This document shows, one piece after another, positions 1 to 37,106 of a stretch of DNA of 64,000 bases (positions within the stretch are counted from its first letter, which is position 1; every line of letters begins with the position of its first letter). Under the pieces are notes generated by a model that saw only the letters and a list, made by a program, of their open reading frames with translations, searched no databases and had not been told where the DNA came from. This DNA is from Rhodoferax sp. TH121 (GTDB lineage: Bacteria > Pseudomonadota > Gammaproteobacteria > Burkholderiales > Burkholderiaceae_C). Position numbers and translations under genes: made by a program. The stretch is taken from positions 1-64,000 of the forward strand of contig NZ_NOXW01000022.1 in NCBI RefSeq assembly GCF_002251855.1, written 5' to 3'.

Positions 1-503
1 ACTCCGGGGTCTATGTCGTGGGCAAGGGAGGAACTGGAGGATATGGGGGTGTTACAAATCAAGGGTACGCATCGGCAGGCGGTGGCGGAGCTGGGGGACC
101 AGCTGTGCGAGTACAACGTGCAGTCTCTGTGATCAATAACGGGACTATCGGTGGCGGTGGCGGGGGAGGCGGTGGTTCTGCACACCCTGGTGGGAACTAC
201 GACGGTGGCGGTGGCGGTGGTGGAGGCGCCGGTTTAGGCGATGGCGGCTCAGGACGATACCCTGGGAATAGCGGACAAATAGGGACACCTGGCGCCGGTC
301 TTAGCAGAGGCTGGTATAGCGGCTCGGGCGGTCGGCTTGGAGCTTCTGGCACATCAGGCTCTACGCTTGATTTTCCACCGGCTGACGGATTCAACGGGTT
401 TTATCTAGCTGGTGGCGTCGGAGGATCGGGAGGAGCCGCGGTAGTAGGTAACTCATTTGTGACGTGGACGACAACTGGAACCCGCCTGGGAGCATTGCAA
501 TGA
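1..503 (+). CDS. Glycine-rich tail/surface protein, 3' part only
   Basis: The reading frame is open to the window edge, so this is the C-terminal part (about 167 residues) of a longer protein. It is very rich in glycine, with runs of six or more Gly, and ends in a short TWTTTGTRLG segment. That ending resembles the C-termini of phage tail-tip and tail-fibre proteins; this is a family-level impression, not a firm match. The stop TGA overlaps the ATG of the following Rhs gene (ATGA), so the two are probably translated together. The role is unknown. A surface or tail-like component delivered or assembled with the Rhs protein is an inference from the coupling. Confidence 0.6.
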   Translation, partial: SGVYVVGKGGTGGYGGVTNQGYASAGGGGAGGPAVRVQRAVSVINNGTIGGGGGGGGGSAHPGGNYDGGGGGGGGAGLGDGGSGRYPGNSGQIGTPGAGLSRGWYSGSGGRLGASGTSGSTLDFPPADGFNGFYLAGGVGGSGGAAVVGNSFVTWTTTGTRLGALQ

Positions 504-3259
504 ACAAGAAGAGCAACATCAAGCGCAACACACTGGCCCTGCTGGGCACGCTGAGTTTGACCGTGGGTCTAGCGGGGGCCCAAACGCAAAGCCAAACGAC
601 AGTCTTTGTGAAGAACGCCCAAGGCCAAATGGCCAGCGTAACCGACGCCATGGGCAACAAGGTGGACTACCGCTACGACGCAGCGGGCAACCTGATTCAG
701 ACCAATGCAGCAGGCTCCATCACAACCCTGCAGTACGACCAGCGTGGCAACAAGATCGCCATGCAAGACCCCGTCATGGGATCGTGGACCTACGGCTACA
801 ACGCCTTTGGAGAGTTGGTCACCCAACGCGACAGCCTGAACCAGAACACCACACTGGCCTACGACGTCCTGGGGCGCATGACCAAGCGCACAGAGCCGGA
901 CCTGGTGAGTGACTGGAGCTATGACAAGAAATTCGATGGCACCGCCTGCGGCAAGGGGATCGGCAAACTCTGCGAAGCCAAGACCGACAACAACTACAAG
1001 CGAGTCCACACCTACGACAGCCTGGGGCGTCCCAGCAGCACGGCCACCGTACTGGACAACGTAGCAAGCCCAGAGATCGTCTCGGAAACCTTTGATGCCA
1101 ACACCGGGCGAGTCGCCACCAAGACCTGGCCCACCGGCTACCAAGTCAGCTACAGCTACAGCGCCTTGGGATACCTGACGGCCGTCACCGGCGGAGGCAG
1201 CAACGGATTCAGCCAGACCACCAATTACCAAATCCAGGGCATGACCCCCAATGGGCAGATCACCCAGTACCGCAGTGGCAACAACGTCACCGTTGTTAAA
1301 ACCTACGATCCTTTGGTAGAGCGTCAGACCGGCCAGATCGCTACCACTGACGGCCAGACTGCCGGCAACGTCATGAACCAAGCCTACCGCTTCAATGCGC
1401 TGGGCAACCTGCTCGCTCGCCTGGACAACACCCCAGGCGTAGGCACCCAAGAGAGCTTCAGCTATGACAGCCTGAACCGACTCACTACTGCCTCCATCCT
1501 GGGTGGTGCGGTAAGCCCGCCCACCACCACGGAAGTCATGTACGACCAACGTGGCAACATTGCTTACAAAAGTGATGTAGGCCGTTACTGGTACGACGCA
1601 GCCCGCCCCAACCGCATGACCCAGGTCACCCTGGAGACTGCGGCTGGTGCCACGGTGGCCCTGACAGGCACCCGAGCCTTGAGCTACGCCTTTGATGATG
1701 ACAGCGTCAACGCCCAAAGCCTCAACGGCACCACGGTGGGCAACGGCAACCTGCAGTACACCGTCAGTCAAGACACTGCCAACAGCCGTCACACCGTGCG
1801 CACGGAAATCTACACCAGCTACAACATGCCTGGGCGAATCACCTACGGCAACTTCGTGACCAACACCAGCAACACGTCGGACCGGGTGCTGGACTTTGTG
1901 TACGGGCCTGAGCATCAGCGCATCCGGCAAACCGTTGCCCTGTCCGGCAACGGCACCAGCAGCTACTTCTCCGGCAACACGTGGTACTTGAACGGAGAAG
2001 ACAACCTGGGGCTCACCTATGAGAAAGAGGTACGAGCCAACGGCACCACCGAGCACAAGCACTACCTGAGTGCCCAAGGCGTGACGTTTGCGCTGTTTAC
2101 CAGCCGCACCGGAACGTTGAACGGACTACCTGCAACGACCACAAGCTACTTCCACCAGGACCAGATGAGCAGTATCTCGACCATCACGGACGAGACAGGG
2201 GCGGTGACGGAACGTCTGGCCTACGACCCCTGGGGCAAGCGCAGGTTCATCAGCACGACACCTGGGCTAATGGACACGTTGGACGCCATCGTGGGGCAGA
2301 AGACGGATCGTGGCTACACGATGCATGAGCATCTGGATGAGGTGGGCGTGATCCACATGAATGGACGGGTCTATGACCCGCTCATGGCGAGATTCATGTC
2401 TGCGGATCCGATCATCCAATCGCCTGATGACCTCAGGTCATTCAACAGGTACTCCTACGTATGGAACAACCCTATGCGGATGTTTGATCCTACAGGGTTC
2501 TTCAGTTGGAGTGTTGGCGGGCCCAATTCACCCAGCAGTAGCGATGGTGGTGGTTATGGGTACACAAGCAATGGAGTGTCAACCACTTATGGCTGCTCCG
2601 CCTGTGGCACCTCTACCTCAACGCCCCCAGCTGGTTGGAGTAGTGGTGGGGGATCTGGCGGACACACAGCCTATTTCTCACAGGTCGACGAAAATGGAAA
2701 TCCACTAGGGACCAATCCGCTGGCCCAAGAAGCTCCAAAGATGGTAGCGATGAGCGCTCTGACATTGGGATCTGGTGTCGCGGGAATTTATGGGATAGGG
2801 CAGTTAGGACTTGGTTTGTGGGGCTTAACCGAAGCAGCCGAAACAGGCCTACCTCCAGTGATTTTGCCGCCAGGCATTAAGCCATTTCGCACTCCTCCTC
2901 GAGTTGCAGATAGAGTGGAAATGTCATCAGGGCAAGTGCTAGATCGAGCAATTGCGTCAGGTCCTGAGCGCGTCGCAGGTTTTGAGATAGACGGCGCAAA
3001 ACAGATGGTTGAGGCTACGTTGCAACGCGATGTATTGCGCATAGCTACGGAGGCAGGCCCTGGCATGGGGAGCATTAAAGCTCTAATACGGGGGTTAGAG
3101 AAGGATGCCTTATCAGCTGGGGCCAATGCTCTACGTGTTGTTGGGCACGAGATCCAAAACAACACTTGGTTTAGAAACTCTAGTCTGGCAGAAAAGCTGG
3201 GGTATCAGTTCAACAAGCTATCTGAAACAACGTTTGAAATAGTTAAGGAACTCAAATGA
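500..3259 (+). CDS. Rhs/YD-repeat polymorphic toxin
   Basis: This is a 919-residue Rhs protein. The ATG at 500 is chosen over an in-frame ATG at 464 because it overlaps the upstream stop and starts a signal-peptide-like segment (basic NKKSNIKRN, then hydrophobic LALLGTLSLTVGLAGA). YD repeats such as YDAAGNL, YDQRGN and YDSLNRL run through about residues 60-600. The Rhs core hallmark (GRVYDPLMARFMSADP, then RYSYVWNNP and DPTG) lies around 620-663. After it the sequence changes to a variable tip of about 255 residues with noticeably more AT-rich codons, as expected for an exchanged toxin domain. The last 70 residues (GMGSIKALI ... AEKLGYQF) look like the motif A/B region of a GNAT acetyltransferase; this is tentative. 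Family knowledge: the Rhs core forms a shell around a C-terminal toxin. Confidence 0.9.
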   Translation: MNKKSNIKRNTLALLGTLSLTVGLAGAQTQSQTTVFVKNAQGQMASVTDAMGNKVDYRYDAAGNLIQTNAAGSITTLQYDQRGNKIAMQDPVMGSWTYGYNAFGELVTQRDSLNQNTTLAYDVLGRMTKRTEPDLVSDWSYDKKFDGTACGKGIGKLCEAKTDNNYKRVHTYDSLGRPSSTATVLDNVASPEIVSETFDANTGRVATKTWPTGYQVSYSYSALGYLTAVTGGGSNGFSQTTNYQIQGMTPNGQITQYRSGNNVTVVKTYDPLVERQTGQIATTDGQTAGNVMNQAYRFNALGNLLARLDNTPGVGTQESFSYDSLNRLTTASILGGAVSPPTTTEVMYDQRGNIAYKSDVGRYWYDAARPNRMTQVTLETAAGATVALTGTRALSYAFDDDSVNAQSLNGTTVGNGNLQYTVSQDTANSRHTVRTEIYTSYNMPGRITYGNFVTNTSNTSDRVLDFVYGPEHQRIRQTVALSGNGTSSYFSGNTWYLNGEDNLGLTYEKEVRANGTTEHKHYLSAQGVTFALFTSRTGTLNGLPATTTSYFHQDQMSSISTITDETGAVTERLAYDPWGKRRFISTTPGLMDTLDAIVGQKTDRGYTMHEHLDEVGVIHMNGRVYDPLMARFMSADPIIQSPDDLRSFNRYSYVWNNPMRMFDPTGFFSWSVGGPNSPSSSDGGGYGYTSNGVSTTYGCSACGTSTSTPPAGWSSGGGSGGHTAYFSQVDENGNPLGTNPLAQEAPKMVAMSALTLGSGVAGIYGIGQLGLGLWGLTEAAETGLPPVILPPGIKPFRTPPRVADRVEMSSGQVLDRAIASGPERVAGFEIDGAKQMVEATLQRDVLRIATEAGPGMGSIKALIRGLEKDALSAGANALRVVGHEIQNNTWFRNSSLAEKLGYQFNKLSETTFEIVKELK

Positions 3260-3693
3260 TTGATCGTGATCATCTAGTTCGAATATTTCGTCGAACCATT
3301 ATTTCAACTGAGTTTACGCGGCCATATTTAGACTGGGACGAAAATACAAGAGCAAAATTTCAGGAATTAATCCAGTTAAACGATCTAGCAAAATCGGCTG
3401 TCATTCTTTATTTTAAGAAGATTGATCAATGGCTTTTGCTGACCACTAAAGATTTGTACTTCAAATCTCCGGATAAACCCATTGATCATGTTTTGGTAGA
3501 TGAAGTAGTGTCAGCACGAATTGACCTCCGCATAAATAAGGAGAATGGATTCTCCCAAGGAAAGGGCTTCAGCATCATCACTTTATCGATGATTGATGGG
3601 CATCCTTGGAATATAAATATTGAGCACGGATCTGCGACAGAAGGCGTACTTAGAGTTTTGACCGAAATGATTCGAAATCGTCCAGTTGCATGA
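3256..3693 (+). CDS. Probable immunity protein for the Rhs toxin
   Basis: A 145-residue cytoplasmic-looking protein with no signal peptide. Its ATG overlaps the Rhs stop codon (ATGA), the usual position of a cognate immunity gene. The middle of the protein (WLLLTTKDLYF, then alternating beta-like segments and a C-terminal helix ending LRVLTEMIRNR) has the pattern of a PH-like fold (LT-x-x-R/K-L-Y/I-F). No named immunity family is recognised. The gene is AT-rich like the Rhs tip, suggesting the two arrived together. The immunity role is inferred from position; the fold guess is weak. Confidence 0.6.
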   Translation: MIDRDHLVRIFRRTIISTEFTRPYLDWDENTRAKFQELIQLNDLAKSAVILYFKKIDQWLLLTTKDLYFKSPDKPIDHVLVDEVVSARIDLRINKENGFSQGKGFSIITLSMIDGHPWNINIEHGSATEGVLRVLTEMIRNRPVA

Positions 3694-3759
3694 GCAATCA
3701 AGGTGTTGCAGCCGACCGAAAACTGACCATCTGGGGGTGCAGCGTAAAACTTGGACTGG

Positions 3760-4210
3760 TTAAGTGACGATCCCAAGGCTTGCCCGGTACTCGATAGGGC
3801 TAAGTGACCCTAAGGATGCTTGATCCTCTTCTCGTTGTACCAGCGGATATAGGCGTCCACTGTCTGGATGAATTGGTCAACAGAAACATCCTGCCAGTTC
3901 CGAGGATAGAACATCTCTGTCTTCAATCGACCAAAGAAGCCCTCACAGGCCGCATTGTCTGGCGAACAACCTTTGCGTGACATCGAACGGATTAACTTGG
4001 CGTTGTGTAATCTTTGCAACCACCCTGGCCAACGATAGTGGGCTCCACGGTCGGAATGAATTACAGGTTTCATTTCACTGGTGGCTACCGTCTCAATCGC
4101 GGCGTCCAGCATCGTACGGGAACAAATGTCCATGCGCGAGATTTCCAATCCTAACCAATACCACGTAAAGCAGTAAATGACCAGCGATGGAATAACTTTG
4201 CTCGACAGTC
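3760..4210 (-). pseudogene. IS3-family (IS150-like) transposase OrfB remnant
   Basis: The fragment carries the second half of an IS3 OrfB integrase core: HSDRG with the second catalytic Asp, then SRKGCSPDNAACEGFFGRLK with the catalytic Glu, then RWYNEKRIK. Reading upstream of a TTG at 4148 in the same frame gives a recognisable stretch (LVIYCFTWYWLG) back to about 4210, where similarity stops at an in-frame stop, so the 5' half is gone. At the 3' end, one missing base near 3820 puts KHP-stop in place of the normal tail. The expected ending (SLGSLSPIEYRASLGIVT-stop, stop at 3760-3762) is intact in the next frame. The sequence at about 3731-3758 (CTGGGGGTGCAGCGTAAAACTTGGACT) resembles an IS3-type terminal repeat. 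The copy is non-functional. Confidence 0.8.
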
Positions 4211-4368
4211 AAGTGCAAGACCTTGTGAGTGCAATGGCGGCGTTTGCACCACCGGCGGCGGGGTAGACCACAGCCTATGCAAAAACACTTATTCAGAAAC
4301 CAGTTTATTTAACCCCGGACTCCAAACCAAAGTGCTACTGAAAATGGGGGACGTCGCCTGGGTACCAA
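4211..4368. other. Gap between IS remnant and tnsC; no gene
   Basis: No credible coding sequence is seen. This is where one end of the Tn7-like element might lie. Two AAACCA-containing stretches (AAACCAGTTTATTTAA near 4297 and AAACCAAAGTGCTACTG near 4326) could be weak TnsB-site candidates. I could not find a matching inverted copy elsewhere in the window, so the transposon end is not established. Confidence 0.3.
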
Positions 4369-5703
4369 CTACAAGTCACGAAGGCTTGCCGCATTGGTCC
4401 TCAGTGTTTCGGCATCGGGACGAGCGCGGCGCGGCAACTTCACTACGGTGCTTGATTCACCCGTGTGATGGGTCCGGTTGACAGGTTTATTGGTTTTTCT
4501 CTCTTGTCCCGACGTAGCGGCTCGCTGAATTTCTTCGGTGAGTCGCAGATCTCTTCTTTGCCTCATTTCCTCTGTGAGCTTGGGGTGGAGTCTGTCGGGC
4601 TGCCCAATGGGGCACCAAAGGTCATTTCGCTTATTGTCTACTTGGCGCCCCAGAATGAGCTGTTGGGTAACAATTTCAATATCGATACGATGCGCAAAAA
4701 ACAAATGCGATCGATAGGCCGATTGAATGTGCTCCATGTTGACTGTGAAGCGGCCGTCGTTTGTTTGGCTACGTGCTATGCGATACCCCTCAACTAGTAA
4801 CCCTACCGCCGCGCGTTTGATGCCTGCACAGTAGCGGTGAAACTGGGGGGCATCAGTTTTCGGATTAATTCGGAAAATTTCCGGCGACACAGCAATCAAG
4901 GCCGCCAGCGTATCGCTCCAGTCGTCACTTTCCGGGGTATCCGGCGACAGGATCATCAGATCTGCCAGTAGCCGGTCACGATCTTCTTGTGGACGTCGCA
5001 ATAGGCGATGCAGCAGGCTGTGGTTGGCAACATACACGGTTGGCAGTCCGCAGTACCCCATTGAAAGTAACGTCTGTGTGATTCTCGTGTTGGCCGATGC
5101 GCTTGCTGTCAGAAACTGAAACTCGTCCGCAAGCAACAACGCCACTCCATCGCGATACGCACGCTTGCGTGCCGTCTTGAGCTGATCCCCTAGCGAACCC
5201 TCGGAGCCGCCCAGTGGAGCAAGCATATCTTTCAGTGAAGAACGGACCTGTACGTCAACCCTCCACAAGGATCGCATGGGGAACTTGGATGACTCGGGTG
5301 GACATGCGACGTATCCATCCGACGGAAGAACACGCTCCAAGGCACTCGCGAGGCAGGATTTTCCGACACCTGCCAGTCCGGTGATGCAAGCCGGTGATGC
5401 GAACTGGGGGAGTGGGGAGTCTTGCCGGTAGACATTGCCTGTAAAACTCTGGATGTCCGGATAGAGTTGCAGGCAATGCCCGTAGGCCCGACTGACCAAT
5501 TGATGCAGGATATCCACGATCTGTGTCGTGGGATGGAAGACCAGCTGCATTGCGTCGGTCAGAGCCCGGCAAGCTGAGTCAGTAGGTAGTTCGTGGAGGG
5601 CTGACAAAGGTACTGCTGATCGCAATGCTCGTCGTTTGATTTCCTCTTTGTCCAGGACAGGCAGAAACCGATCAATCCATGGAGATGTTGTTGTGCCGGT
5701 CAT
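4369..5703 (-). CDS. tnsC: TnsC-like AAA+ transposition regulator
   Basis: A 444-residue ATPase. Walker A is GLAGVGKS at 109-116 and Walker B is ALLLADEF at 188-195, followed by a typical AAA+ lid region and a basic, probably disordered C-terminus (KLPRRARPD). In the Tn7/Tn5053 family TnsC/TniB polymerises on DNA with ATP and links the target selector (TniQ/TnsD) to the TnsA-TnsB transposase. It is the last gene of a minus-strand tnsA-tnsB-tnsC operon, and its ATG overlaps the tnsB stop (ATGA). The family call rests on motif and context; the exact Tn7 subgroup is not determined. Confidence 0.88.
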   Translation of the reverse strand: MTGTTTSPWIDRFLPVLDKEEIKRRALRSAVPLSALHELPTDSACRALTDAMQLVFHPTTQIVDILHQLVSRAYGHCLQLYPDIQSFTGNVYRQDSPLPQFASPACITGLAGVGKSCLASALERVLPSDGYVACPPESSKFPMRSLWRVDVQVRSSLKDMLAPLGGSEGSLGDQLKTARKRAYRDGVALLLADEFQFLTASASANTRITQTLLSMGYCGLPTVYVANHSLLHRLLRRPQEDRDRLLADLMILSPDTPESDDWSDTLAALIAVSPEIFRINPKTDAPQFHRYCAGIKRAAVGLLVEGYRIARSQTNDGRFTVNMEHIQSAYRSHLFFAHRIDIEIVTQQLILGRQVDNKRNDLWCPIGQPDRLHPKLTEEMRQRRDLRLTEEIQRAATSGQERKTNKPVNRTHHTGESSTVVKLPRRARPDAETLRTNAASLRDL

Positions 5704-7724
5704 GCGCGTTTTTTCCCAGAAAGATATTGACTTGCTTCTTCATATTCGCGCTGGGCGATGGCATTCTTCTTGGGCTTGCCTGTGCGCAGCTTCGCGGCAT
5801 CCCAGGGTTTTCCGACATCGGCCTCAAAGGCCTGCATGGTGCCAGTCGTTACCGCATGCTGGTGAGGTCTAAACGCTGAATCAACGTCTCTTCGTACATC
5901 GTCCCACTGCTCCAATTCCTTGTGCGACAGATAAAGCAGTCCCTCGTCGTCACGCAGTCGGAGCTTGGCGTCAAGCATGAATAGCTGTCCTTCGTGCTCA
6001 ACCCAGATATGGCGCACGGCCATCTCCAGCATGTAGCCTTGGATTGTTACGGTCGTTGAGGCGCGCTTAAGCTTGTCGAACAGACCGGTCTCGCGAAACT
6101 CTTTGGATTCGAAGCGCTGCCCCAGAAGCCAAACCCCTTTTTCGTTGACGGTCAGCTCAATGGGAGTCAAGAAAGCTCGTACCGCATCCGCAATAGGCAT
6201 TGGAAGCGAGTCATTGCGAAAACGGCCGTCGTAGTAGTTCCACAGACTGATCGGATCGGGCGGGACGTAGGCCAGGTCTCCAATCGGTTGGAAACGCGCA
6301 GACATATCCGCCGTGCGGTTGTAGTTCAGGAGGCGGTAGATCTCTTGCTTGGCCAGCTCCACAGGATTGAGATCACTTTGGCGGTACGTAGGTGCACCTT
6401 CAATTTTGATGTCGCGCGGATGAGAGGACTCGACCGTTGCTTTGGACTGGGCCGTCCAGGAAGGAGCTGTTTCTCCAATGGGGAGTTTGTTAAGTAGATC
6501 TTTCTGCAGTTTCTTGGATGCGCCTGGGCCGCGGTCCAAAGTCATAAAGCCGGGCACACCTTCATTGGGCCAATGCTTTTTCTCAATGGATATGCCGAAG
6601 AGCGAACAGAAGAAATCCTTGGGTACGGCCATGCAGAACAGCATCGCTCGGTAAGCTGAATTGCGCTCAGCGCCAAACGAGAAACCAATACCGAGTTTGA
6701 GTCCGCTGAGCACATCCCGCGCAATGACGACCGACAACGCCGGTAGTGTGCTCCCTTCAATGAAGCCTTTGGGCCGTTCATCGGTGTTGTAGGCATCGGC
6801 TTCCACTCGCTCGACTAGATTTGCAACCGCCTCTGAAAAAGCGCCCTTGCTGGCGACTTTGCGATTGCGATGACGGATCTGGCCATACAGACTCAACTGA
6901 ATGGCGTCCAGACCGAATTTTTGCAAGACACGGTAGCGAAACTGCCAATAGCTGGGGAACGGCTTGCCCTCGGGCTGAATAAAGTCCTCGGTTCCAAAGG
7001 CCGTTGTCATCGGCCGGCACTTGAACTCGTTCTTCATGGTTCGCCGATAGATGTCTTGCATGGTGCGCTTTGGCGCGCTGTGCTTCAACCACCCTTGGAT
7101 GCAGGCATCCACTACGTCATGGCGACACCCAAAACCATAGTGCTTGCCGAATTTCCTGTTCTCGCGCCCTTGCTTGGAGTCAGGGAAGGCGAACCGGTCG
7201 TGATGTCCGGCGTTGAGAAACGGCGGCAGAAGTACCCAGGAATCTCGTCCGAAACATAGGTAGGTGTAGAACCAGAGGCGGTACCGTGTCTCGTTTTGAG
7301 TAGGCTTGCAATTGCGTGCGAGGGTGTTGAGCAGGCGGTCCGGTTTAACGGCATCCAGGATGGTTTCCCATTGCTCGAGTGCAGGCGCGAGCAGCAAAAG
7401 ACGATCTTCGACGCGTGATGTATGTGACTTCTTCGCACGGGGCCGCAAAACATCGATCTGAGTCAGGTCGACGCCCTCCAGCGGCGATAGCCAAGGAGGA
7501 AGCGAAGCCTGCGAAGGACACGCTACAAGCTGGCCACCGTCTATGGCGTCTTCGAAGGCTCCTTGGGGCAGGATTAGCAGCTCAGCCTTTGCTTGGTGCT
7601 TTCGATCGCCAGCAAAGCGTAACAGCATGATTCTGTTCTTGCGGCTGCGTAAGAAGTGGTAGGTCTCACCTGCACGGAGGGTACCCCATCCCTGAGGGGC
7701 CATCAGTTGGTTGCCGCAGTGCAT
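5700..7724 (-). CDS. tnsB: TnsB-like DDE transposase
   Basis: About 674 residues in the Mu/Tn7 DDE integrase family. The ATG at 7724 is preferred because it overlaps the tnsA stop as TGATG; a GTG lies one codon earlier. An N-terminal region of about 290 residues should bind transposon ends. The RNase H-like core shows the triad as D (VEADAYNTDERP, about 310), D (FMTLDRGPGA, about 397) and E (ATVESSHPR, about 432), with spacing normal for TnsB. A Mu-C-like beta-barrel domain and a basic tail (TGKPKKNA ... SGKKRA), likely to contact TnsC, follow. Family role: cuts and joins the 3' ends of the element. The triad is complete, so the gene looks functional. Confidence 0.9.
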   Translation of the reverse strand: MHCGNQLMAPQGWGTLRAGETYHFLRSRKNRIMLLRFAGDRKHQAKAELLILPQGAFEDAIDGGQLVACPSQASLPPWLSPLEGVDLTQIDVLRPRAKKSHTSRVEDRLLLLAPALEQWETILDAVKPDRLLNTLARNCKPTQNETRYRLWFYTYLCFGRDSWVLLPPFLNAGHHDRFAFPDSKQGRENRKFGKHYGFGCRHDVVDACIQGWLKHSAPKRTMQDIYRRTMKNEFKCRPMTTAFGTEDFIQPEGKPFPSYWQFRYRVLQKFGLDAIQLSLYGQIRHRNRKVASKGAFSEAVANLVERVEADAYNTDERPKGFIEGSTLPALSVVIARDVLSGLKLGIGFSFGAERNSAYRAMLFCMAVPKDFFCSLFGISIEKKHWPNEGVPGFMTLDRGPGASKKLQKDLLNKLPIGETAPSWTAQSKATVESSHPRDIKIEGAPTYRQSDLNPVELAKQEIYRLLNYNRTADMSARFQPIGDLAYVPPDPISLWNYYDGRFRNDSLPMPIADAVRAFLTPIELTVNEKGVWLLGQRFESKEFRETGLFDKLKRASTTVTIQGYMLEMAVRHIWVEHEGQLFMLDAKLRLRDDEGLLYLSHKELEQWDDVRRDVDSAFRPHQHAVTTGTMQAFEADVGKPWDAAKLRTGKPKKNAIAQREYEEASQYLSGKKRA

Positions 7725-8704
7725 CACTTGCGTCCAAACCAGGGGCCATAGACTTCGAGAACATCGGCGGTCTCTGGCCGCAACGGGCGGTCAATCAGTA
7801 CTGGTTTGAAAAGGTCGCAGCGAATCTCGCGCTTCCAAATCGCCTGCCACAGGTAGGTTCGGCATTGATGCACAGTGAAACGGTCACGTGCCACGCATAA
7901 GGAAATCACCTCCAAAGGCGAAATGCCGTTCGCAAGCACGGTCGCGAAACGCTCCTTTAGCTCAGCGCATTGAGCGGGACTGAGATCCAGTGGTGTCTTG
8001 TGGTGCAAAAAGAGCTGGGTCAGGTTGGCAACCACATGCGAGTCCAACTGTTCGAGTGCCAGATGTTCAGTTCGAATACCCGCGTCAACGTAGTACACCC
8101 GTTCCATTTCGTTGCGCGGCAACTCTGACACTTCGTCTTGTGCGAGACGTCGCTTGCTGTTCAGGGCGCCAGGACGCTTGAAGGCCTGGATTTGATCTTT
8201 GATGTTCCAGTTGATGCAGTAGGGCACTTCCCCAGGGGGTAGCATGTAGAGCAACAAGTCCCCCACATAGGGAAAGACGAATACACGTGGATTCTGTGGA
8301 TCAGCTGGCGAAGTCTCCGTTACCAACGGAAGCAGATGGCTGTATCCAAGTCGCTCCGCCACATCAATCATCCCTTTGATCGGCGGTAAGTCAAAACTCT
8401 CCACTTCAGGCCAACCGGTCAGTGGATGCAGACGTGGCTCCGCAGAGAGCATCTTTTGTTCGTGGATCTCTTTGACATAGGGGTGGTAGAGCGCCAGCAA
8501 GGCAAACGCGCGTTCAGCTGGGGACAGCAAATGCATGTTGCGTCCACCAAGCTTCTGCGGCGTGAGAATGGATGCCCTAGATAGGTTGGGGGCCTCCTTG
8601 GGAGTGGCTTCAATGGACGCTTGGTAGGCCGCCCTCCATTGCTTCTCTTGCTGACGCTTGTAGATGAGCATGAGGCGGGCAAATGTTGGGCGATTTAATG
8701 CCAT
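7724..8704 (-). CDS. tnsA: TnsA-like endonuclease
   Basis: A 326-residue protein with the restriction-enzyme-like TnsA fold. The N-terminal domain has the TnsA signature SPAERAFALL ... VKEIHEQ. Candidate catalytic residues are E64, D149 (YVGDLLLY) and K169 (CINWNIKDQ), matching the E-D-K set of Tn7 TnsA. The C-terminal part is helical, as in the TnsC-binding domain. In Tn7, TnsA cuts the 5' strands so that, with TnsB, the element moves by cut-and-paste. A strong ribosome binding site (AGGAGG, 5 bases before ATG) supports the start. It is the first gene of the tnsABC operon and is overlapped at its start by a 41-codon upstream ORF. Confidence 0.88.
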   Translation of the reverse strand: MALNRPTFARLMLIYKRQQEKQWRAAYQASIEATPKEAPNLSRASILTPQKLGGRNMHLLSPAERAFALLALYHPYVKEIHEQKMLSAEPRLHPLTGWPEVESFDLPPIKGMIDVAERLGYSHLLPLVTETSPADPQNPRVFVFPYVGDLLLYMLPPGEVPYCINWNIKDQIQAFKRPGALNSKRRLAQDEVSELPRNEMERVYYVDAGIRTEHLALEQLDSHVVANLTQLFLHHKTPLDLSPAQCAELKERFATVLANGISPLEVISLCVARDRFTVHQCRTYLWQAIWKREIRCDLFKPVLIDRPLRPETADVLEVYGPWFGRK

Positions 8705-8820
8705 AGCCGCCTCCTGGCAGTGGCAAACGGGACACCAAGGGGCGTGATTTCAGGCGCTGGAAGTTGGCGGAATGCCGCTAATCGGACATGGCCACTCCAA
8801 ATGAGGCGTAACAAACACAT
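8695..8820 (-). CDS. 41-residue upstream ORF overlapping tnsA start
   Basis: An ATG at 8820, preceded by AAGGAG at a spacing of 6, opens a 41-residue frame (MCLLRLIWSG ... RRRLW H). Its TAA lies inside the tnsA start, overlapping it by 10 bases (ATGGCATTAA). The peptide is basic and hydrophobic at its N-terminus and matches nothing I recognise. The arrangement suggests translational coupling that could limit or time TnsA synthesis. It could equally be a chance frame in the leader; the good ribosome binding site is the main support. Confidence 0.4.
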   Translation of the reverse strand: MCLLRLIWSGHVRLAAFRQLPAPEITPLGVPFATARRRLWH

Positions 8821-8844
8821 GAGTATCTCCTTGCAGACCGACAG

Positions 8845-8860
8845 GTCTCCTATAAGAGAC
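8845..8860. promoter_or_regulatory. Near-palindrome upstream of tnsA, candidate operator
   Basis: GTCTCCTATAAGAGAC is a 16-base near-perfect palindrome about 25 bases upstream of the leader ORF. Its core TCCTATAAG recurs as the complement CTTATAGGA or TTTATAGGA in the divergent control region at 9305-9313 and 9334-9342. It is a plausible binding site for one of the two neighbouring helix-turn-helix proteins. Confidence 0.45.
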
Positions 8861-8968
8861 TCAGGCCAATCGGTTGCGGGTTTCAGTAGACAAAAGCATT
8901 GACAGCCCTACCGAATTTGGAGATACTTCAGGTACCAAGTGAAAGTATTTCTTACTCCGGTAAGAGCG

Positions 8969-9007
8969 AAAAGCCGAGTTCTTCAGCAATGGGGGATTCG
9001 GTTTTTT
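8969..9007 (-). terminator. Hairpin terminator after the small HTH gene
   Basis: AAAAGCCGA at 8969-8977 pairs with TCGGTTTTTT at 8998-9007 through a 9-base stem with one G-T pair. It sits just after the stop of the minus-strand HTH gene (9011). The CTTTT on the minus strand gives a modest U-tract, and the plus strand has TTTTTT, so it may work both ways and insulate tnsA from the regulators. Confidence 0.55.
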
Positions 9008-9010
9008 CGT

Positions 9011-9286
9011 TTATGTGTGTTGCTGCCCTTCTTGCGCAGGCGCCCCGGGCCGAGCGGCCTGGAGGCGTTGCGTCAATTCTTGGATATCCATCTTTTTTCC
9101 CTCTTTAAGTCCCAACGCCATGGCGATTTGGTGGCTTTGTCCGCGAAGGCATTTACGCCGACCTTCGAGAACCTGGTAGACCAAGCCTGTCGAAAAGCCC
9201 TGCACACGCGCCCACTCAGCTACTGAAATACCCGTGTCCGCGAAAAGCGCGCGGGCCGAGTCGGTTTCGTGCAATTGGGCATTCAC
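9011..9286 (-). CDS. Small Cro/Ner-like DNA-binding protein
   Basis: A 91-residue protein with a helix-turn-helix around residues 19-60 (ISVAEWARVQGF, STGLVYQVLEGRRK, HQIAMALGL). This type is common in transposable phages and integrative elements, where it acts as a Cro- or Ner-like repressor. It diverges from the XRE regulator across a 94-base control region, forming a two-regulator switch beside the transposition genes. It is followed directly by a hairpin terminator. Regulation of tnsABC is inferred from position. Confidence 0.7.
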   Translation of the reverse strand: MNAQLHETDSARALFADTGISVAEWARVQGFSTGLVYQVLEGRRKCLRGQSHQIAMALGLKEGKKMDIQELTQRLQAARPGAPAQEGQQHT

Positions 9287-9304
9287 GATGGATTGTATTG
9301 AATG

Positions 9305-9342
9305 TTTATAGGAATAGACATGGTAACCAGATTCTTATAGGA
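9305..9342. promoter_or_regulatory. Divergent control region with two CTTATAGGA-type motifs
   Basis: TTTATAGGA at 9305-9313 and CTTATAGGA at 9334-9342 are direct repeats spaced 29 bases apart, start to start, between the two divergent regulator genes. The complement of the same core is in the palindrome at 8845-8860. A fourth copy at 13543-13551 overlaps a ribosome binding site and may be coincidence. Confidence 0.45.
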
Positions 9343-9380
9343 TGCAAATTGTGTTTACTGATCGACAGGAATCTCTACAA

Positions 9381-9845
9381 ATGTCTTCTAAGCCAGAGGT
9401 TTGGGGCGTCCCGCCTGGATTTGGCCAGCGGTTGAAGGAAGAGCGCACGCGTCTGGGGAAGAGCCAGGTTGAGTTTGCGCAGGCGGGGGGCGTTGGCCGC
9501 CTGTCTCAAATTCAGTACGAAGGGGAGACAACGTCTCCGACGACGCGCTACCTGTCAGGGATTGCGAAAGTAGGTGCCGATTTGACGTATCTGCTGCTTG
9601 GTGCCCGATCGAACATCGCCAAACTAACGTTGGCGCAAGAGGAGCGTATCGAGAGGTTGGCCTTTGATTTGGTCGAAAACTACGCCAAAACCCAACCAGG
9701 CGGGCAATTGGGTGCGGAGAGTCGGCACATTCTGTATCGCGTCTTCAGAAGCAGTCTGATGCAAGTGGAGGCCGGTGCTTTGCCGGCAGATTTCGATCCT
9801 GCATCCCTCATACCTAGTTACCAGGTAACCAGCATCCAGGAGTAA
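9381..9845 (+). CDS. XRE-family repressor of the Tn7-like module
   Basis: A 154-residue protein. The N-terminal XRE helix-turn-helix spans about residues 10-65 (FGQRLKEERTRLGKSQVEFA ... SGIAKVGADLTYLLLG), and a helical C-terminal part probably dimerises. The ATG at 9381 is preferred to one at 9342, which has its AGG directly against the start and no proper spacing; AGGA lies 10 bases before 9381. The stop is 3 bases before tniQ1, so the regulator and both tniQ genes probably share a transcript. A phage-repressor-like role over transposition is an inference. Confidence 0.72.
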   Translation: MSSKPEVWGVPPGFGQRLKEERTRLGKSQVEFAQAGGVGRLSQIQYEGETTSPTTRYLSGIAKVGADLTYLLLGARSNIAKLTLAQEERIERLAFDLVENYAKTQPGGQLGAESRHILYRVFRSSLMQVEAGALPADFDPASLIPSYQVTSIQE

Positions 9846-9848
9846 ACA

Positions 9849-11348
9849 ATGAAACAAGATCAAAACCATCAACCGAAGCTTTTGATCTTGCGCAAGGCGC
9901 TGGATACGGCCAAGGTGGCGGGGCACACGATAGAAGAGTTTGCACGCAACGTTGCGGCGGATCTCGCCGAAAGTGGGAAGCATGTGGGCCACCCGAAACC
10001 TCGCCCGAGTCAGCCAGTACTGCCCGGAGAAGACATAGAACTGGTGATTCCCAGGATTCAGCCCAACGAATTGCTTCACGGTTGGCGAGGTCGCGTGGCG
10101 ACGAACAACTGCCTGAAGGCTGCCAAAAAGGTGGATTCCGTACTGTTGAACTGGGCCCGCAAGGAGTCATTGGTCACGGATGAGAACGCGGGCTTTGTGC
10201 AGTGCGCCGCATATGCGCTGGGCGTCACCCAGCAAGAGCTGATCCGGGACCACACACTCACGCCCTACTTCTCAGCCCTGTGCAACATGAAGCCGAACAA
10301 GCCAGGTGAACCAGGTAAACGTCAGCAGACAAGCTTGCAACAAGCACACTTGCGCATAGACGTGAAAATGGCCATGTTTTGTCCTGAATGCGCAAGGGAA
10401 GATATTGGCTCGCGAGGGCTCCCGTTCTCGTACTGGCGGCGAGGCCACCATTTGGCCGGCGTGGTCAGCTGCAGCACACATGCCGTTCCTTTGTTGGTGG
10501 CTGGTGACGATTCATGCTTTGATCGTTGTCCAGACCATTACTTATCTGAATTCAATACGGAGAGTGCCCGGCCTCTCGATGAATCCGCTCAAGCCATATT
10601 GCTTCGCTACGCCAGAATCTCCGAAGAAATTCTCGAAAGCGCGCCGAACATTGATAGCGCAGCCGCTTCATGCCTCATCAGAGAACGGGCGAAAGCGATC
10701 GGGCTTCGCAGCATCAAGGGTGGAAACCGTAAGACACTGAGTACCCACTTGATGGATCTGCTGCCCTTGGAGTGGTTGGAGCAGACGTTTCCGCGTATCC
10801 ATTGGAAGCGCGACAAGTACATCTCCACCATTGACGGCATTTGCATGCCACTAGTCACCAGGTACACCACGGCCATGCTGTGCCTGTTGGCAGCCGTCTT
10901 GTATGACGACGCAGATCGTGCGCTCGTTGAACTCATGGGCAGTTCTCGCAAGAGTCGCGAACCATTCTTGGGATTTGATTTCTGGGCGAGTCGCGAGATT
11001 TTTGATTCCTATTGTCTTTACAAGGGTGTCGTGAATCAAATGGCTGAAGCAATCGGATTACCGGCCAGCACCGTATCCGTGGGGCTACTGAACCAAGGGT
11101 TGCCAGGTCTTGGTGGAAGAGCTGCGCCGATGCGATCTGCTTTGCGGGCGTTTTATGTTGGTGAATCGATAGAAACATCGTGCGAGCTGGCTGGCGTGCC
11201 CAAAGAGGCATTCATAGAGTTGTTGCGGAGCACCGGTTCCCGCTTGGCGAAAGCGTTGGATCGAATGTCGGATGCAGATGAAAGGATTCCCGGAAAGCAG
11301 GACGTGGCGGAGTCGCCATCATTCGATCCAATCGCTCAACCGAAGTAA
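9849..11348 (+). CDS. tniQ: TniQ-family target selector 1
   Basis: A 499-residue TniQ/TnsD-family protein. A zinc-finger-like set C178-x2-C181 and C208-x2-H211 (FCPECARED ... YWRRGHHLAGVVSCSTH) is the family hallmark. The first 170 residues are unusual for TniQ and the C-terminal 250 residues are helical. TniQ proteins bind the target DNA or a guide complex and recruit TnsC. AGGAG lies 7 bases before the start, and the gene follows the XRE regulator by 3 bases. It differs strongly from the second TniQ, so the two probably recognise different targets. Confidence 0.78.
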   Translation: MKQDQNHQPKLLILRKALDTAKVAGHTIEEFARNVAADLAESGKHVGHPKPRPSQPVLPGEDIELVIPRIQPNELLHGWRGRVATNNCLKAAKKVDSVLLNWARKESLVTDENAGFVQCAAYALGVTQQELIRDHTLTPYFSALCNMKPNKPGEPGKRQQTSLQQAHLRIDVKMAMFCPECAREDIGSRGLPFSYWRRGHHLAGVVSCSTHAVPLLVAGDDSCFDRCPDHYLSEFNTESARPLDESAQAILLRYARISEEILESAPNIDSAAASCLIRERAKAIGLRSIKGGNRKTLSTHLMDLLPLEWLEQTFPRIHWKRDKYISTIDGICMPLVTRYTTAMLCLLAAVLYDDADRALVELMGSSRKSREPFLGFDFWASREIFDSYCLYKGVVNQMAEAIGLPASTVSVGLLNQGLPGLGGRAAPMRSALRAFYVGESIETSCELAGVPKEAFIELLRSTGSRLAKALDRMSDADERIPGKQDVAESPSFDPIAQPK

Positions 11349-11415
11349 GGTTCAAGCAAATCCAGCTTAGGTTCATGCCCTACCGTATGAACACGCTGCC
11401 TGTGTCCACTGGACA

Positions 11416-12945
11416 ATGCGCATGACCAAGAGCGCCGCGCCCAGCACTGAATACCCAGGCCTTTTTAGTCCTCACCAAGAGCCACTCCCTGGCGCATTGG
11501 ATGGTGAGCTGCTCTACAGTTGGTGTGCGCGATTTCATCGCCTCAGTGGAAACTCGAAGGCAAGTACAACCAGCCAAATGCTCTTTGGACACGCGACTAC
11601 GGGATTACGTCACGACTTCCCAGGTCAACTTGGCTATTTCGGGGCGGCAACTGGAGGACATCTCGGCACTTTGCAGGAGATCGTGCAGGCACGGACACAG
11701 TTTGCGCTGCACGCACTTTTTTTGGATGAATCCACGCGGCGAGCGACGGAAAGCGTTTTCCAAGGGAATGACCGAAGTCAGCTCAGCCGAACTCTGGGCC
11801 TCAGTCGCAGCGGGCAGGTGTCGCTAACGCCATTGAAGGCGTGCCCGGCATGTATAGGCGAAGATCGCGGAACTGTTCTGACGGGTTGGTGGCGCATGGA
11901 TCACCAATGGCCGAGCATGTATGCCTGTCTGAAACATCGTTGTCTGCTCAACGTCATGGCGAATCAAGGGCGCGCGCACTGGCTCCAAGAGTGGTATCTG
12001 CCAGTTGAGTTGCGGGAAGACCAGTGGGCAGAACACACAGAGATGGGGCAGTCGCAAGTGGAGCGCTTGATCCATATTGCGCGGTGGACGGAAGCGCTTC
12101 TCCATCAGCGAGACATCTACTTCGACGCAACACTGTTGCGCCACGTCTATTTGTACCAGGCGAAGGCGCGTGGTTGGATGACATGGGATGGGGCGCTACG
12201 TTTCGCGACTCTGCGTGCCGCCTTTGCAGACTCACACCGGGGTTTGGAAGCACTGCCGGGGTGGGAATTTATCAAAGAAGTAGGTTCGGTCAATGGGGGA
12301 TTTCTGGGACTGTTGCTGAGAAAGCATCCAGGGCGGCGGCATCCACTCAAGCATGTGCTGCTGATGGCGTTTCTCTATGAAGAACCATTGGATTTCTATG
12401 CCCAGTATGAAAACTCCAAGTTGATACTGGAGACTGAGGGTCCAGCTGCACTGGATCGGCGGCTGACGGACATGCAATCACGTCTGATTGAAATGGTGGA
12501 GAGTGAAGGCAAGTCGGCAAATGCATCGTGTCTTGAACTTGGTATCCCAACCACCCAAGGACTTCGACTGCTGACCAGAAAGAATGTTGCTGTTCATCGA
12601 CGCCCGCGAATACTGACAGATGCACTGAAGGCAGAGCTGGAGGCGCTACTGCGCGCTGGTACAGAACGCGATGAAATCGCACGTCGGTTGAAACTGAGAA
12701 AAGCCTATGTGAAAGACTATTTGGCTACACAGCCAGAGCTTCGGAATGCGTGGGAGCAAGCAGCCAAAGTCCAGCTGGCGGCGCGCTATCGAGCCCATTT
12801 TCTGAGAGTCTTGGAAGACAACCCAGATGTGCCGATTAAGCGGATACGGCGAATTGGTGGCAATGGTTTTGAATGGCTGTACAGGAATGATCGAGAGTGG
12901 CTGGCGGAGAACTTGCCGGGAATTTGGCGCAGGCCAGAAACTTGA
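11416..12945 (+). CDS. tniQ: TniQ/TnsD-type target selector 2
   Basis: A 509-residue TnsD-like protein. The N-terminus has the classic TniQ opening (PGALDGELLYSWCARFHRLS, then SQMLFG), missing from the first copy. The zinc motif is C143-x2-C146 and C171-x2-H174 (KACPACIGED ... YACLKH). The C-terminal half contains HTH-like stretches (ERDEIARRLKLRKAYVKDYL) and ends WLAENLPGIWRR, as in TnsD proteins that read a specific attachment site. It lies 67 bases after tniQ1. An in-frame ATG two codons in (11422) is an alternative start. Which chromosomal site it uses cannot be read from this window. Confidence 0.82.
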   Translation: MRMTKSAAPSTEYPGLFSPHQEPLPGALDGELLYSWCARFHRLSGNSKASTTSQMLFGHATTGLRHDFPGQLGYFGAATGGHLGTLQEIVQARTQFALHALFLDESTRRATESVFQGNDRSQLSRTLGLSRSGQVSLTPLKACPACIGEDRGTVLTGWWRMDHQWPSMYACLKHRCLLNVMANQGRAHWLQEWYLPVELREDQWAEHTEMGQSQVERLIHIARWTEALLHQRDIYFDATLLRHVYLYQAKARGWMTWDGALRFATLRAAFADSHRGLEALPGWEFIKEVGSVNGGFLGLLLRKHPGRRHPLKHVLLMAFLYEEPLDFYAQYENSKLILETEGPAALDRRLTDMQSRLIEMVESEGKSANASCLELGIPTTQGLRLLTRKNVAVHRRPRILTDALKAELEALLRAGTERDEIARRLKLRKAYVKDYLATQPELRNAWEQAAKVQLAARYRAHFLRVLEDNPDVPIKRIRRIGGNGFEWLYRNDREWLAENLPGIWRRPET

Positions 12946-16238: not shown

Positions 16239-17012
16239 CTAGTTGGAGGGGCGTTTTCTTGCATAGGCATGAAGCTGTTTATTGAGTGCATCCTTGTTTG
16301 GTGAGTAGTGTGCATCACGGTGGCAATTAGGGCAAAGCGCCACACAGTTAGTCACCCTGTCACTTTTTGCAATTCCAAGAATGTGGTGCACATCTAGGAA
16401 ACTCTTGTATCGGAGTTGTTCGGAGCATCCCTTTCGCTCGCACTTTTCCCCGGACTTCTTCAGCACATCTTCACGCACCTTCCTGTCCCGCGGGAAATAG
16501 TGCCCGGGACCAGTCGGCTTGCTATGACCTTCATCACGTCCCAGTTCCGGGGCGCCGACATCTGCGAGGTCATCTTGAACGTCTGGCTCCGAGTGAAGGG
16601 CTACAACGGATAGATCTTGTGCCCACCACATCCCGCCTTCATGCACCAAGGTCTTTGGCGTAAGCCTAGGTTCAAACCGCCCTATGGATGACGGGTCCCG
16701 CCCCGCTCCCGTTTTCCCCACTGATGCCTGCCAGATTGGGAACGTGAACAGTGCATAGCCCTCTTCAGCAACACGCGACAAATGTTCGATAGCTTGGGGG
16801 TAGCCTGGTTGACGACGGGCCTTGGTTGAACCTTTGGGAATGCGCGTTGCCCAGTGCTCATCTAGTATCAAGTGTCGCCCGGCAATATGATGGCTATCCT
16901 CCTGCCAGGCGCCAAAGATCACAAAACGTTGCGTCTTGTTCACGAATGACCAACTCCAGGTCCAGTTCTTGCAGGTGGCACCGTAGCTTTCTATGAAGGT
17001 CGTTCTACGCAT
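16239..17012 (-). CDS. HNH endonuclease with unassigned N-terminal domain
   Basis: A 257-residue protein. The C-terminal 67 residues form an HNH zinc-finger nuclease: C191 and C196 (CERKGC), HH at about 209-210 (LDVHHI), N-C at 222 and the CPNCHRDAH zinc/catalytic end. This type occurs in McrA-like restriction enzymes. The N-terminal 185 residues contain several aromatic beta-like stretches (NWTWSWSFV, RFVIFGAW, YALFTFPIW) that might read modified DNA, but I cannot assign them. It is the first of three minus-strand genes in the accessory region. A restriction-like defence role is inferred. Confidence 0.65.
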   Translation of the reverse strand: MRRTTFIESYGATCKNWTWSWSFVNKTQRFVIFGAWQEDSHHIAGRHLILDEHWATRIPKGSTKARRQPGYPQAIEHLSRVAEEGYALFTFPIWQASVGKTGAGRDPSSIGRFEPRLTPKTLVHEGGMWWAQDLSVVALHSEPDVQDDLADVGAPELGRDEGHSKPTGPGHYFPRDRKVREDVLKKSGEKCERKGCSEQLRYKSFLDVHHILGIAKSDRVTNCVALCPNCHRDAHYSPNKDALNKQLHAYARKRPSN

Positions 17013-33014: not shown

Positions 33015-33042
33015 GCTTCGGTGTCGGAGCTTCGACCGAAGC
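33015..33042. promoter_or_regulatory. Inverted repeat before DGxQR-HEPN cassette
   Basis: GCTTCGGT at 33015-33022 and ACCGAAGC at 33035-33042 are perfect 8-base arms, ending 17 bases before the ATG at 33060. It could be an operator or leader hairpin controlling the cassette. Confidence 0.5.
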
Positions 33043-33059
33043 AACCAACCAAGGACCCT

Positions 33060-34220
33060 ATGGCTGACATATTTTTGAGCGACGCGCGCGTCAACTGCTT
33101 ATCCGGGATGGGGCAAATCGGTGCCGCCGAATATCTCTCCATGGTAGAAGCTGTTTATCGGGAATCTGGTGGCATTGAGGGCCAGCGCGCACCACTGAAG
33201 ACTAAGACAGGTATTAACATCCGGAAGCGGATGGTCGAGGACATTAAAAACGGAGCACTCTTGCCTCCAATCGTCCTCGGCGCCGTGGTAGGAGACGAAA
33301 TTTTCGAGGCCGCTTCCAAAGTGGAGTCGAATGAGGCCTTTGTGCACCTATTGAGATCAATTGACAAGAGTCGCCTCTCGATCATTGACGGCATGCAGCG
33401 CACCACAGCCCTCGATGCCGCGATGCGTGATTCAAACATCGACGGCACGAACATTCGCGTTGATCTTTGGTTAGCCAAAAGCTTAGACAGCCTCGTATAT
33501 CGCATGTTGGTGCTCAACACAGGTCAAGTGCCATGGGACATCAAGCGGCAGCTGGAGACGATCTACAAGCAAGTGCTACTTGAGATCGAAAAGGGCGCCA
33601 CCGAAATTACGGTCTTCGAAATCGACTCCAAGGAGCGCCGCAGCGGCGCAGGCCAATATCGCTCGGCGCGGATCGTTGAGCTCTTCTTGGCGTTCACCTC
33701 TCGCAAACCGCATATTGAACTCAAAGAAAAGGTGGCAGAGGACTTCGCGCGGATGGACGCGACCGAAGCTACGGCCAATCAAGACACGCTCCCGGTGTTC
33801 ATCGAAACGATGAAGTTGCTGGCGAGGTTCGACCAGGTACTTTCTAAGACTACCTGCTCCGAGGATTTGGTGACCGATTCAACACGTTTCAAAGAAGGCC
33901 GCGACATCTTCACCAGCGCGCCGGCGAGCATAGGCTTTGCGGCGGCCGCCGCCCAGTATCTTCTCGGCAAGCCTGGCTACGCCTTCACTTTTTCGGAAAT
34001 GCGCTTAAAGCTTGAGCGCCTGACATCGGCCGTCCAAATTGTGATCGATAAGGTCTCGTCGGAATTCGTCGACTACGCCACCCTAAATGAGAAAATCTCT
34101 GCGAGGTCAGGGCGGATAGGCGAGTACGAGCGCGAATTTTTCTTCAGGGCGTTCGAGCTCATGTTCAATGACGCTGCCCAGCTGCAAAGCCTGACTCCGT
34201 GTTGGTCGGCTTATAAATGA
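33060..34220 (+). CDS. DGxQR-motif protein (DndB/ParB-like)
   Basis: A 386-residue protein. The ATG at 33060 with AGGA 5 bases upstream is used rather than one at 33021. An N-terminal domain contains SIIDGMQRTTAL (DGMQR at 110-114), similar to the DGQHR/DGQQR catalytic-loop motif of DndB, DUF262 and ParB-like proteins. NTP-dependent members of that superfamily act in DNA-modification defence. The remaining sequence (SKERRSGAGQYRSARIVELF) is helical and unassigned. It overlaps the downstream HEPN-motif gene by ATGA, so they function together. The specific DndB assignment is uncertain because no dnd genes are nearby. Confidence 0.6.
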   Translation: MADIFLSDARVNCLSGMGQIGAAEYLSMVEAVYRESGGIEGQRAPLKTKTGINIRKRMVEDIKNGALLPPIVLGAVVGDEIFEAASKVESNEAFVHLLRSIDKSRLSIIDGMQRTTALDAAMRDSNIDGTNIRVDLWLAKSLDSLVYRMLVLNTGQVPWDIKRQLETIYKQVLLEIEKGATEITVFEIDSKERRSGAGQYRSARIVELFLAFTSRKPHIELKEKVAEDFARMDATEATANQDTLPVFIETMKLLARFDQVLSKTTCSEDLVTDSTRFKEGRDIFTSAPASIGFAAAAAQYLLGKPGYAFTFSEMRLKLERLTSAVQIVIDKVSSEFVDYATLNEKISARSGRIGEYEREFFFRAFELMFNDAAQLQSLTPCWSAYK

Positions 34221-36970: not shown

Positions 36971-37000
36971 ACGTTCCTCTATCGTGTAATTGCTTTGTAT

Positions 37001-37036
37001 TGGTGCATCTTTGCCAAGAAATTGGCAAACGCACCA
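37001..37036 (-). promoter_or_regulatory. Leader hairpin of amt
   Basis: TTTGCCAA at 37010-37017 and TTGGCAAA at 37022-37029 are perfect arms. Outside them, TGGTGC at 37001-37006 and GCACCA at 37031-37036 also pair. The composite 14-pair hairpin lies between the sigma-54-type promoter and the ribosome binding site, in the predicted 5' leader. Confidence 0.6.
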
Positions 37037-37043
37037 AAATAAA

Positions 37044-37059
37044 GCAAAAACTGCGCCAG
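37044..37059 (-). promoter_or_regulatory. Sigma-54-type promoter of amt
   Basis: On the minus strand CTGGCGCAGTTTTTGC has GG and GC separated by exactly 10 bases, as required at -24/-12, and matches TGGC-N-C ... TTGC. Nitrogen control of amt through RpoN/NtrC is common in this group. Confidence 0.6.
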
Positions 37060-37106
37060 TTTGGGGCTGGGTGAAAACTGCTGTGCGGTATACAATCAAC
37101 GCTTGT

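Follow-up and report, generated by a model that had tools for sequence, protein, structure and literature searches.

A core of a Tn7-related transposon in Rhodoferax sp. TH121 with two TniQ selectors, a phage-type regulator pair and a 4-bp target duplication

Tn7, whose termini read 5'-TGT, is moved by TnsABC together with TnsD to attTn7, its attachment (att) site at glmS. Its sites are packed at the right end and spaced at the left, and elements of the Tn7 family are described as making a 5-bp target duplication (PMC11406308), a stagger that a 2024 review presents as common to Tn7 and all its relatives. Related dual loci carry two TniQ/TnsD genes per tnsABC set, one of them with the TnsD C-terminal domain; they are inferred to stem from in-situ duplication, and only a few hold distantly related proteins (Faure et al. 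2023, PMC10293859). The subject of this report is a gene block at positions 4369-12945 of a window of 64,000 nucleotides from Rhodoferax sp. TH121 (contig NZ_NOXW01000022.1, labelled C17 here), encoding a tnsABC set, two TniQ-domain selectors and two helix-turn-helix (HTH) regulators. Very probably, these genes form the core of a cut-and-paste transposon, at least 39.4 kb long, whose lineage operates in the manner of Tn7 with a stagger of 4 bp; its second TniQ protein would direct it to an amt-family ammonium transporter gene, and a switch of phage type would regulate it.

On the minus strand lie tnsC (4369-5703, an AAA+ ATPase of 444 aa), tnsB (5700-7727, a DDE transposase of 675 aa) and tnsA (7724-8704, an endonuclease of 326 aa), and the first gene on this side encodes a gp16-like HTH regulator (9011-9286, minus strand; TIGR04111, BcepMu gp16, 1.4e-22). 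A 55-bp intergenic region (9287-9341), with a probable promoter/operator role, separates it from a divergent plus-strand operon headed by the gene of an XRE-type regulator (9342-9845; HTH_3 E 0.0079, below cut-off) and continued by tniQ1 (9849-11348, a TniQ-domain selector of 499 aa; PF06527, 3.4e-17) and tniQ2 (11416-12945, a TnsD-like selector of 509 aa; PF15978, 4.7e-28, plus PF06527). All frames are intact. A preliminary description had placed the genes at these coordinates, which the list of open reading frames (ORFs) confirms, and its picture of tnsABC (4369-8704) diverging from XRE-tniQ1-tniQ2 (9342-12945), with two opposed HTH genes between, is borne out, as are the complete catalytic sets that it ascribed to TnsA (E64, D149, K169), TnsB (DDE) and TnsC (Walker A/B). 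TnsA and TnsB were without a Pfam match at E<=0.1 and were therefore checked by alignment; NCBIfam gave no name to either. The three TnsA residues are invariant in 17/17 aligned TnsAs, and the TnsA profile matches that of Tn7-type TnsA (hhalign prob. 98.9, E 1.6e-17). In TnsB, D311/D398/E433 correspond to D273/D361/E396 of Tn7 in all 26 aligned proteins (19 of this lineage, 7 controls), and phmmer relates the protein to Tn7 TnsB (7pik, E 7.9e-5). Walker A (G112, K115) and DExQ (D193, E194, Q196) of TnsC are likewise invariant (17/17 aligned), with a profile match to Tn7-type TnsC at prob. 98.0, so that the catalytic residues of tnsABC are complete and invariant across the lineage.

The right end of the element lies 22.8 kb beyond the block (35713-35763, minus strand), where two copies of the TnsB-type end motif AAATAAAGTCYGTCG, derived from clustered repeats (18-mers) in two relatives designated G830 and G666, stand 20 bp apart and finish at 35763 with the terminus TGATAGGAAAC. 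Allowing up to 3 mismatches, the terminal pattern has a single other match in the genome, at C13:146715, with 3.7 kb of that contig beyond it; the left end falls at C13:146714. The left flank reads GCGG then TGATCG, and the right flank ...TATCA then GCGG, the two copies of this 4-bp target duplication occupying 35764-35767 of the window and C13:146710-146713. The window starts at base 1 of C17; the left part of the element fills its positions 1-4368 and continues, across an assembly gap, on C13:146714-150379, and the element measures at least 39.4 kb because 3,666 bp on C13 and 35,763 bp in the window flank an unassembled gap. Two tandem sites at the right and spaced sites at the left give arrays of ~20-bp sites at both ends, as in Tn7. 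In the lineage the termini are TGA or TGG where read, and TGC at one end of the plasmid element L007; the control element L122 has TGT when only TG was required, a comparison for which control L123 provides no test since TGT was required there. A first end search with TG/CA termini and 5-bp repeats had returned chance pairs only, and clustered 18-mers then revealed the ends. Within the left part, the Rhs-repeat protein and the small ORF downstream of it (464-3693) are accompanied by a transposase fragment (rve_2/rve_3 by Pfam) that we take to be of IS3 type; the contig break at the window start perhaps results from the Rhs repetition.

Relatives were gathered through TnsB matches, which, the own genome included, occur in 4/300 genomes of the order, 2/369 of the class and, within the family, 7/200 at E<=1e-10 and 10/399 at E<=1e-40 (the genome sets overlap), as well as in 4/13 genomes of one genus, 4/61 of that genus's family and 1/10 of another family. 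Two further loci came from a search of genome contigs. Among plasmids, 27 records held a TnsB match, 2 of them covering >=80% of the protein; seven weaker plasmid matches were taken as controls, and G695 was dropped (28% identity over part of TnsB, E 8e-11). The final set comprises 20 loci, the window and 19 relatives. In a TnsB tree, an analysis the preliminary description had proposed, 19 loci (G1025, with a stop in the tnsB frame, being omitted) were placed together with the 7 control TnsBs, and all 19 form one group apart from Tn7 with 100/100 support and a long stem, in which the window TnsB pairs with that of L005 (65% identity) and then L006.

Target duplications of 4 bp characterize 9/10 elements with both ends, namely the window element and eight others recovered by an automated end-pair search in which repeats of 6, 5, 4 and 3 were tried longest first and an AATAAA-like core near the terminus was required. 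A pair with >=14/18 matching terminal bases emerged in 8/16 contexts, and every one of the eight has exactly 4 bp (CAAG in G1060, GTTA in L005, CCAG in L007, GAGA in L008, GCTG in G156, ATTT in G151, TTGC in G679, CTAG in G1065). In the remaining 10/20 loci, G666 among them, both ends were not found, and boundaries between stacked elements were excluded from the counts. Run without the core requirement, the search in places gave chance-like pairs that equalled or outscored true ones: one of 15/18 in G679, the true pair (14/18) not being among the three listed, and pairs of 16/18 in G813 and G666 with a 6-bp and a 5-bp repeat, respectively. All of these were judged to be chance, the TnsB-site core being absent; G677, G983 and G1025 yielded no accepted pair. 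Two plasmid sites without the element have flanks overlapping by 4 bp: for L007 in NZ_CP083747.1 (left flank 240084-241101, right flank 241098-242200, both 100%) and for L008 in CP104568.1 (99.8%), where 4 bp, out of 2 to 6 bp, also gives the longest joined frame. In G679 a 33,396-bp element sits inside an ABC-transporter gene (SbmA/BacA-like match), and taking it out together with 4 bp gives back a protein of 642 aa, which does not happen with 3, 5 or 6 bp. Two of the seven plasmid-borne Tn7-like control loci, by comparison, give 5 bp (TTAAT and CCTAG): L122 in the searches with TG and with TGT, and L123 in the TGT search, its top pairs in the TG search having come from an unrelated inverted repeat. 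The Shewanella control L119 has an 18/18 end pair that lacks any matching repeat of 4 or 5 bp, and no convincing end pair was obtained for L117 (Tn7), L118, L120 and L121. By the published definition the element fails one Tn7 feature, the 5-bp duplication, and for this reason we speak of a TnsABC-TniQ transposon lineage with 4 bp.

The GCGG duplication directly follows the stop codon of the intact amt gene (35768-37099, minus strand; PF00909, 8e-89; TIGR00836, 312.8 bits, below the 343.3 cut-off), so the right end abuts the 3' end of that gene; off the left flank lies a small membrane-protein gene, presumably doxX. A genome of the same genus, G876, has no element between the same two neighbours, the flank matches lying 104 bp apart, with the left flank (70% identity) aligned until ~107 bases short of the insertion and the right flank (83%) from the amt end on. 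In G1007 the two flanks are ~2.3 kb apart, and in G945 the amt side alone aligned. Another genome of that genus, G783, has end-like repeats after amt (L052 7314-7370) and no tnsB match, and these repeats are a right-end scar of an earlier occupation of the amt site. Read from the DNA, therefore, the element has paired ends, a 4-bp flank repeat, a position just after the amt stop and an element-free neighbour pair in its own genus. Together with nine further two-ended elements, this answers for the mobility and ends that the preliminary description had anticipated; the 5-base duplications that it expected gave way to 4 bp in 9/10 two-ended elements and at two exact empty sites. Insertions lie at glmS in five cases (G156, G151, G813, G1065, G865) and after amt in two (the window and L005), and elsewhere inside the ABC-transporter gene of G679 and in two Pseudomonas plasmids (L007, L008). 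In all seven elements with an att gene found, the tandem-site end points toward that gene, and tnsABC reads away from it (no tnsC was found in G865). Some attachment sites hold stacks, in which older copies seem to have been pushed outward by newer ones: the end pairs of G156, G151, G1065, L005 and G830 directly abut further ends, the stacked contexts including G1065:C1 (L082-L085, 18726-53298) and G857:C15 (L092-L094, 2264-35969). A manganese riboswitch (yybP-ykoY, RF00080, E 4.3e-20; 37099-37292, plus strand) adjoins the start of the minus-strand amt.

The two TniQ proteins have conserved zinc-type ligands (TniQ1 C178/C181/C208/H211, 12/12; TniQ2 C143/C146/C171/H174, 16/16) and are unlike each other, as had been noted from the window alone. 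In a tree of 36 TniQ proteins, in which the Tn7 TnsD row is a 224-aa fragment, 12/13 TniQ1 rows form one clade (98/96; the exception is G314) separate from TniQ2 and the control TnsDs, and 15/16 TniQ2 rows group together. Both genes are in the tree for 12/20 loci, the pairings G156/G151, G666/G983 and G1065/G1060 recur in the TniQ1 and TniQ2 halves, and several groupings repeat those of the TnsB tree, so that the possibility of the TniQ genes belonging to a separate element falls away. L005 has TniQ1 alone on its contig, TniQ2 alone was found in G865, the second TniQ of G813 and L008 is weak or judged by eye, and the contigs of L006, G223, G830 and G882 end nearby. The window TniQ2 is without the C-terminal tail that most relatives have and sits on a long branch (1.78). 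Structure predictions were too poor for use (predicted local distance difference test, pLDDT, 38 for TniQ2 and 34 for TniQ1). Insertions away from att genes, inside a gene in G679 and in plasmids in L007 and L008, point to a second pathway; the two target pathways suggested in the preliminary description are made likely by this spread of insertions over conserved gene ends and other places, two plasmids included. We infer that TniQ2 homes to the att gene, that TniQ1 serves the second pathway and that the switch controls both operons.

That switch had been compared to the repressor/Cro pairs of phages, and homology to divergent pairs in phages Dobby, D14A and Komp_PAO1_1 backs the comparison. 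In Dobby both window proteins match the divergent neighbours gp35 (helix-turn-helix) and gp36 (BcepMu gp16 family), and in D14A the gp16-like and XRE proteins likewise match divergent neighbours. The match of the gp16-like protein in phage Sirocco is annotated as a cox-like antirepressor and lies beside a divergent CI-like repressor, a match of the XRE protein to that repressor not being among the matches listed. The XRE protein is similar to phage immunity repressors; its likeness to DicA (5.6e-5) and RstR (8e-5) is weak and falls below the curated cut-off in each case. In 10/17 contexts a gp16-like gene lies ahead of tnsA, joined by a divergent XRE-like gene in 6 of the 17 (in G679 by eye); the role of the pair would be regulatory.

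Several observations weigh against this account and are best considered together with the rival explanations. The ends of the window element stand on separate contigs with an unassembled gap, and the case for joining them rests on termini that match, on the 4-bp repeat and on a neighbour gene in common. As for the duplication, an ordinary Tn7-family element making 5 bp, with its exact ends misplaced by one base, would agree with the family description (PMC11406308) and with G1025, which, read by hand, shows 5 bp (AAGCT). The A that precedes the 4-bp repeat in 4/5 first-read elements (the window, G1065, G156 and G151, not G679) would also fit 5 bp with one end shorter; in L005, however, that base is a G, G679 requires 4 bp for its frame, two control elements give 5 bp, and the overlaps of exactly 4 bp at both plasmid sites already contradict such a misplacement, which is very improbable. 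The duplication count is further clouded by G666, whose two end-like arrays, one to each side, differ in motif and flank and were treated as ends of two elements, and by the small element that follows L005 in its stack (31218 to ~35969), the flanks of which, GTTA and AGGC, are unlike.

Support for the TniQ2 group is only 89/78, with G677 outside. At the same amt site, L005 carries a TniQ1 of 320 aa, and its contig lacks a TniQ2. Since the window and L005 share both the site and TniQ1 (45% over residues 11-319), TniQ1 might be the amt selector and TniQ2 keep another target. We consider this unlikely: the L005 TniQ1, cut to 320 aa, looks as if it had decayed or been replaced by cargo, and that genome encodes a TniQ2-like protein elsewhere (C80, E 6e-18, residues 24-332); the TnsD domain sits on TniQ2, all five glmS-sited relatives carry a TniQ2 with a long C-terminal tail, and the window TniQ2 occupies a long branch, as expected after a switch to another target. 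In the position of the window's tniQ2, L005 has, between tniQ1 and the right end, a two-gene unit (2461-6799) encoding a protein with GHKL-type ATPase domains and a 655-aa protein without a Pfam match. The switch, too, is unevenly distributed: no gp16 gene lies upstream of tnsA in 7/17 contexts, and a divergent XRE gene was seen in just 6/17. Its phage homology, and the arrangement in Komp_PAO1_1, where the gp16-like match shares its strand with the annotated transposase and the XRE match runs divergently, could suggest that a transposable (Mu-like) phage has left a remnant that retains its transposition genes and immunity switch and to which TniQ genes were added. This origin is very improbable, as no TnsB match at E<=1e-5 turned up in 50,697 phage records, which led us to reject a phage source of the transposase; in addition, TnsA and TnsC have profile matches to Tn7 types and TniQ2 has one to the TnsD model, the end arrays and the homing to a gene's 3' end follow the Tn7 pattern, and among the scanned proteins none was recognised as a phage structural protein.

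A Tn7-related element with a 4-bp stagger, the reading we favour, would operate as follows. TnsA and TnsB would excise the element; TniQ2, bound at the 3' end of amt, would recruit TnsC and TnsAB, which would insert the element with its right end closest to the gene, the two strand transfers being 4 bp apart. A second pathway, perhaps one leading into plasmids, might be supported by TniQ1. As proposed for phages, the XRE protein would act as a repressor and the gp16-like protein as its antagonist, so that the tnsABC and tniQ genes could be expressed under alternative conditions. A bolder proposal, possible but tentative, is that this is a separate TnsABC-TniQ lineage whose stagger is 4 bp and which uses a lysogeny switch captured from a phage to choose between chromosomal homing by TniQ2 and plasmid hopping by TniQ1 that depends on neither Cas nor TnsE.

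The element is related to Tn7 and works like it. Both have TnsA with catalytic E, D and K, a DDE TnsB, an AAA+ TnsC and a TnsD-type TniQ, packed right-end and spaced left-end sites, a right end that faces the att gene, insertion at a conserved gene's 3' end (in this lineage glmS 5, amt 2) and a tnsABC set read away from the right end. Unlike Tn7, the element makes a 4-bp rather than a 5-bp duplication, ends in TGA or TGG rather than TGT, has its tnsA far from the right end with cargo between, and has tnsABC divergent from a tniQ operon, a gp16/XRE pair of phage type and a second TniQ; no TnsE was seen among the proteins scanned. It resembles the dual loci in having two TniQ/TnsD genes per tnsABC set, one with the TnsD C-terminal domain, and departs from these loci (PMC10293859) in that TniQ1 and TniQ2 are distant in 12/13 cases; a CRISPR (clustered regularly interspaced short palindromic repeats), TnsE or TnsF partner was not recognised, TnsF not having been searched by name. 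As in Dobby, D14A, Sirocco and Komp_PAO1_1, a gp16-family HTH gene adjoins a divergent XRE/CI-like repressor gene, yet here, unlike in those phages, the pair sits between transposition and target-selector genes, with phage structural genes not recognised. In the open-access literature we found no description of this lineage (a Tn7 4-bp duplication, an ammonium transporter with TnsD, divergent tniQ and tnsA), and, because the survey covers 80,028 loci, it may sit unnamed in those data (PMC10293859). With a 4-bp lineage, structures and mutants can be used to test how the two active sites are spaced, and more tools for DNA insertion come within reach; the amt site, a distant TniQ pair without a recognised Cas or TnsE partner and a switch of phage type likewise render two old questions testable, the aiming of a second pathway and the choice between pathways.

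Between tniQ2 and the right end, 12946-35712 hold cargo: HAD, HNH and YaaC-like proteins, regulators, a metabolic cluster and a DzbA/DzbB-like pair. The scans covered a portion of the cargo ORFs, and the element includes an unassembled stretch; within these bounds, no Cas effector or TnsE profile was found among the scanned proteins, and 12946-35763 contain no CRISPR array and no close direct repeats of >=20 bases. For this scope, the earlier view that RNA guiding is not indicated holds, and the Cas effector genes and array that define CRISPR-associated transposon (CAST) systems are missing. Both TniQs match TniQ models of CAST systems (PADLOC); TniQ2 scores 20 bits against the Cbp1 HTH model (cut-off 140), and the HNH protein (16239-17012) 28 bits against that of IscB (cut-off 175), this protein also matching type IV restriction and other HNH models. 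The annotated genes of L007, in an incomplete gene table, include no TnsE or Cas. Defence-type cargo appears near both ends: the DzbA/DzbB-like pair near the right (33021-35365; PADLOC, 6.4e-53 and 3.5e-9) and, in the C13 part near the left (L051 8144-9682), a PD-Lambda-2-like pair of HigB toxin type (PADLOC).

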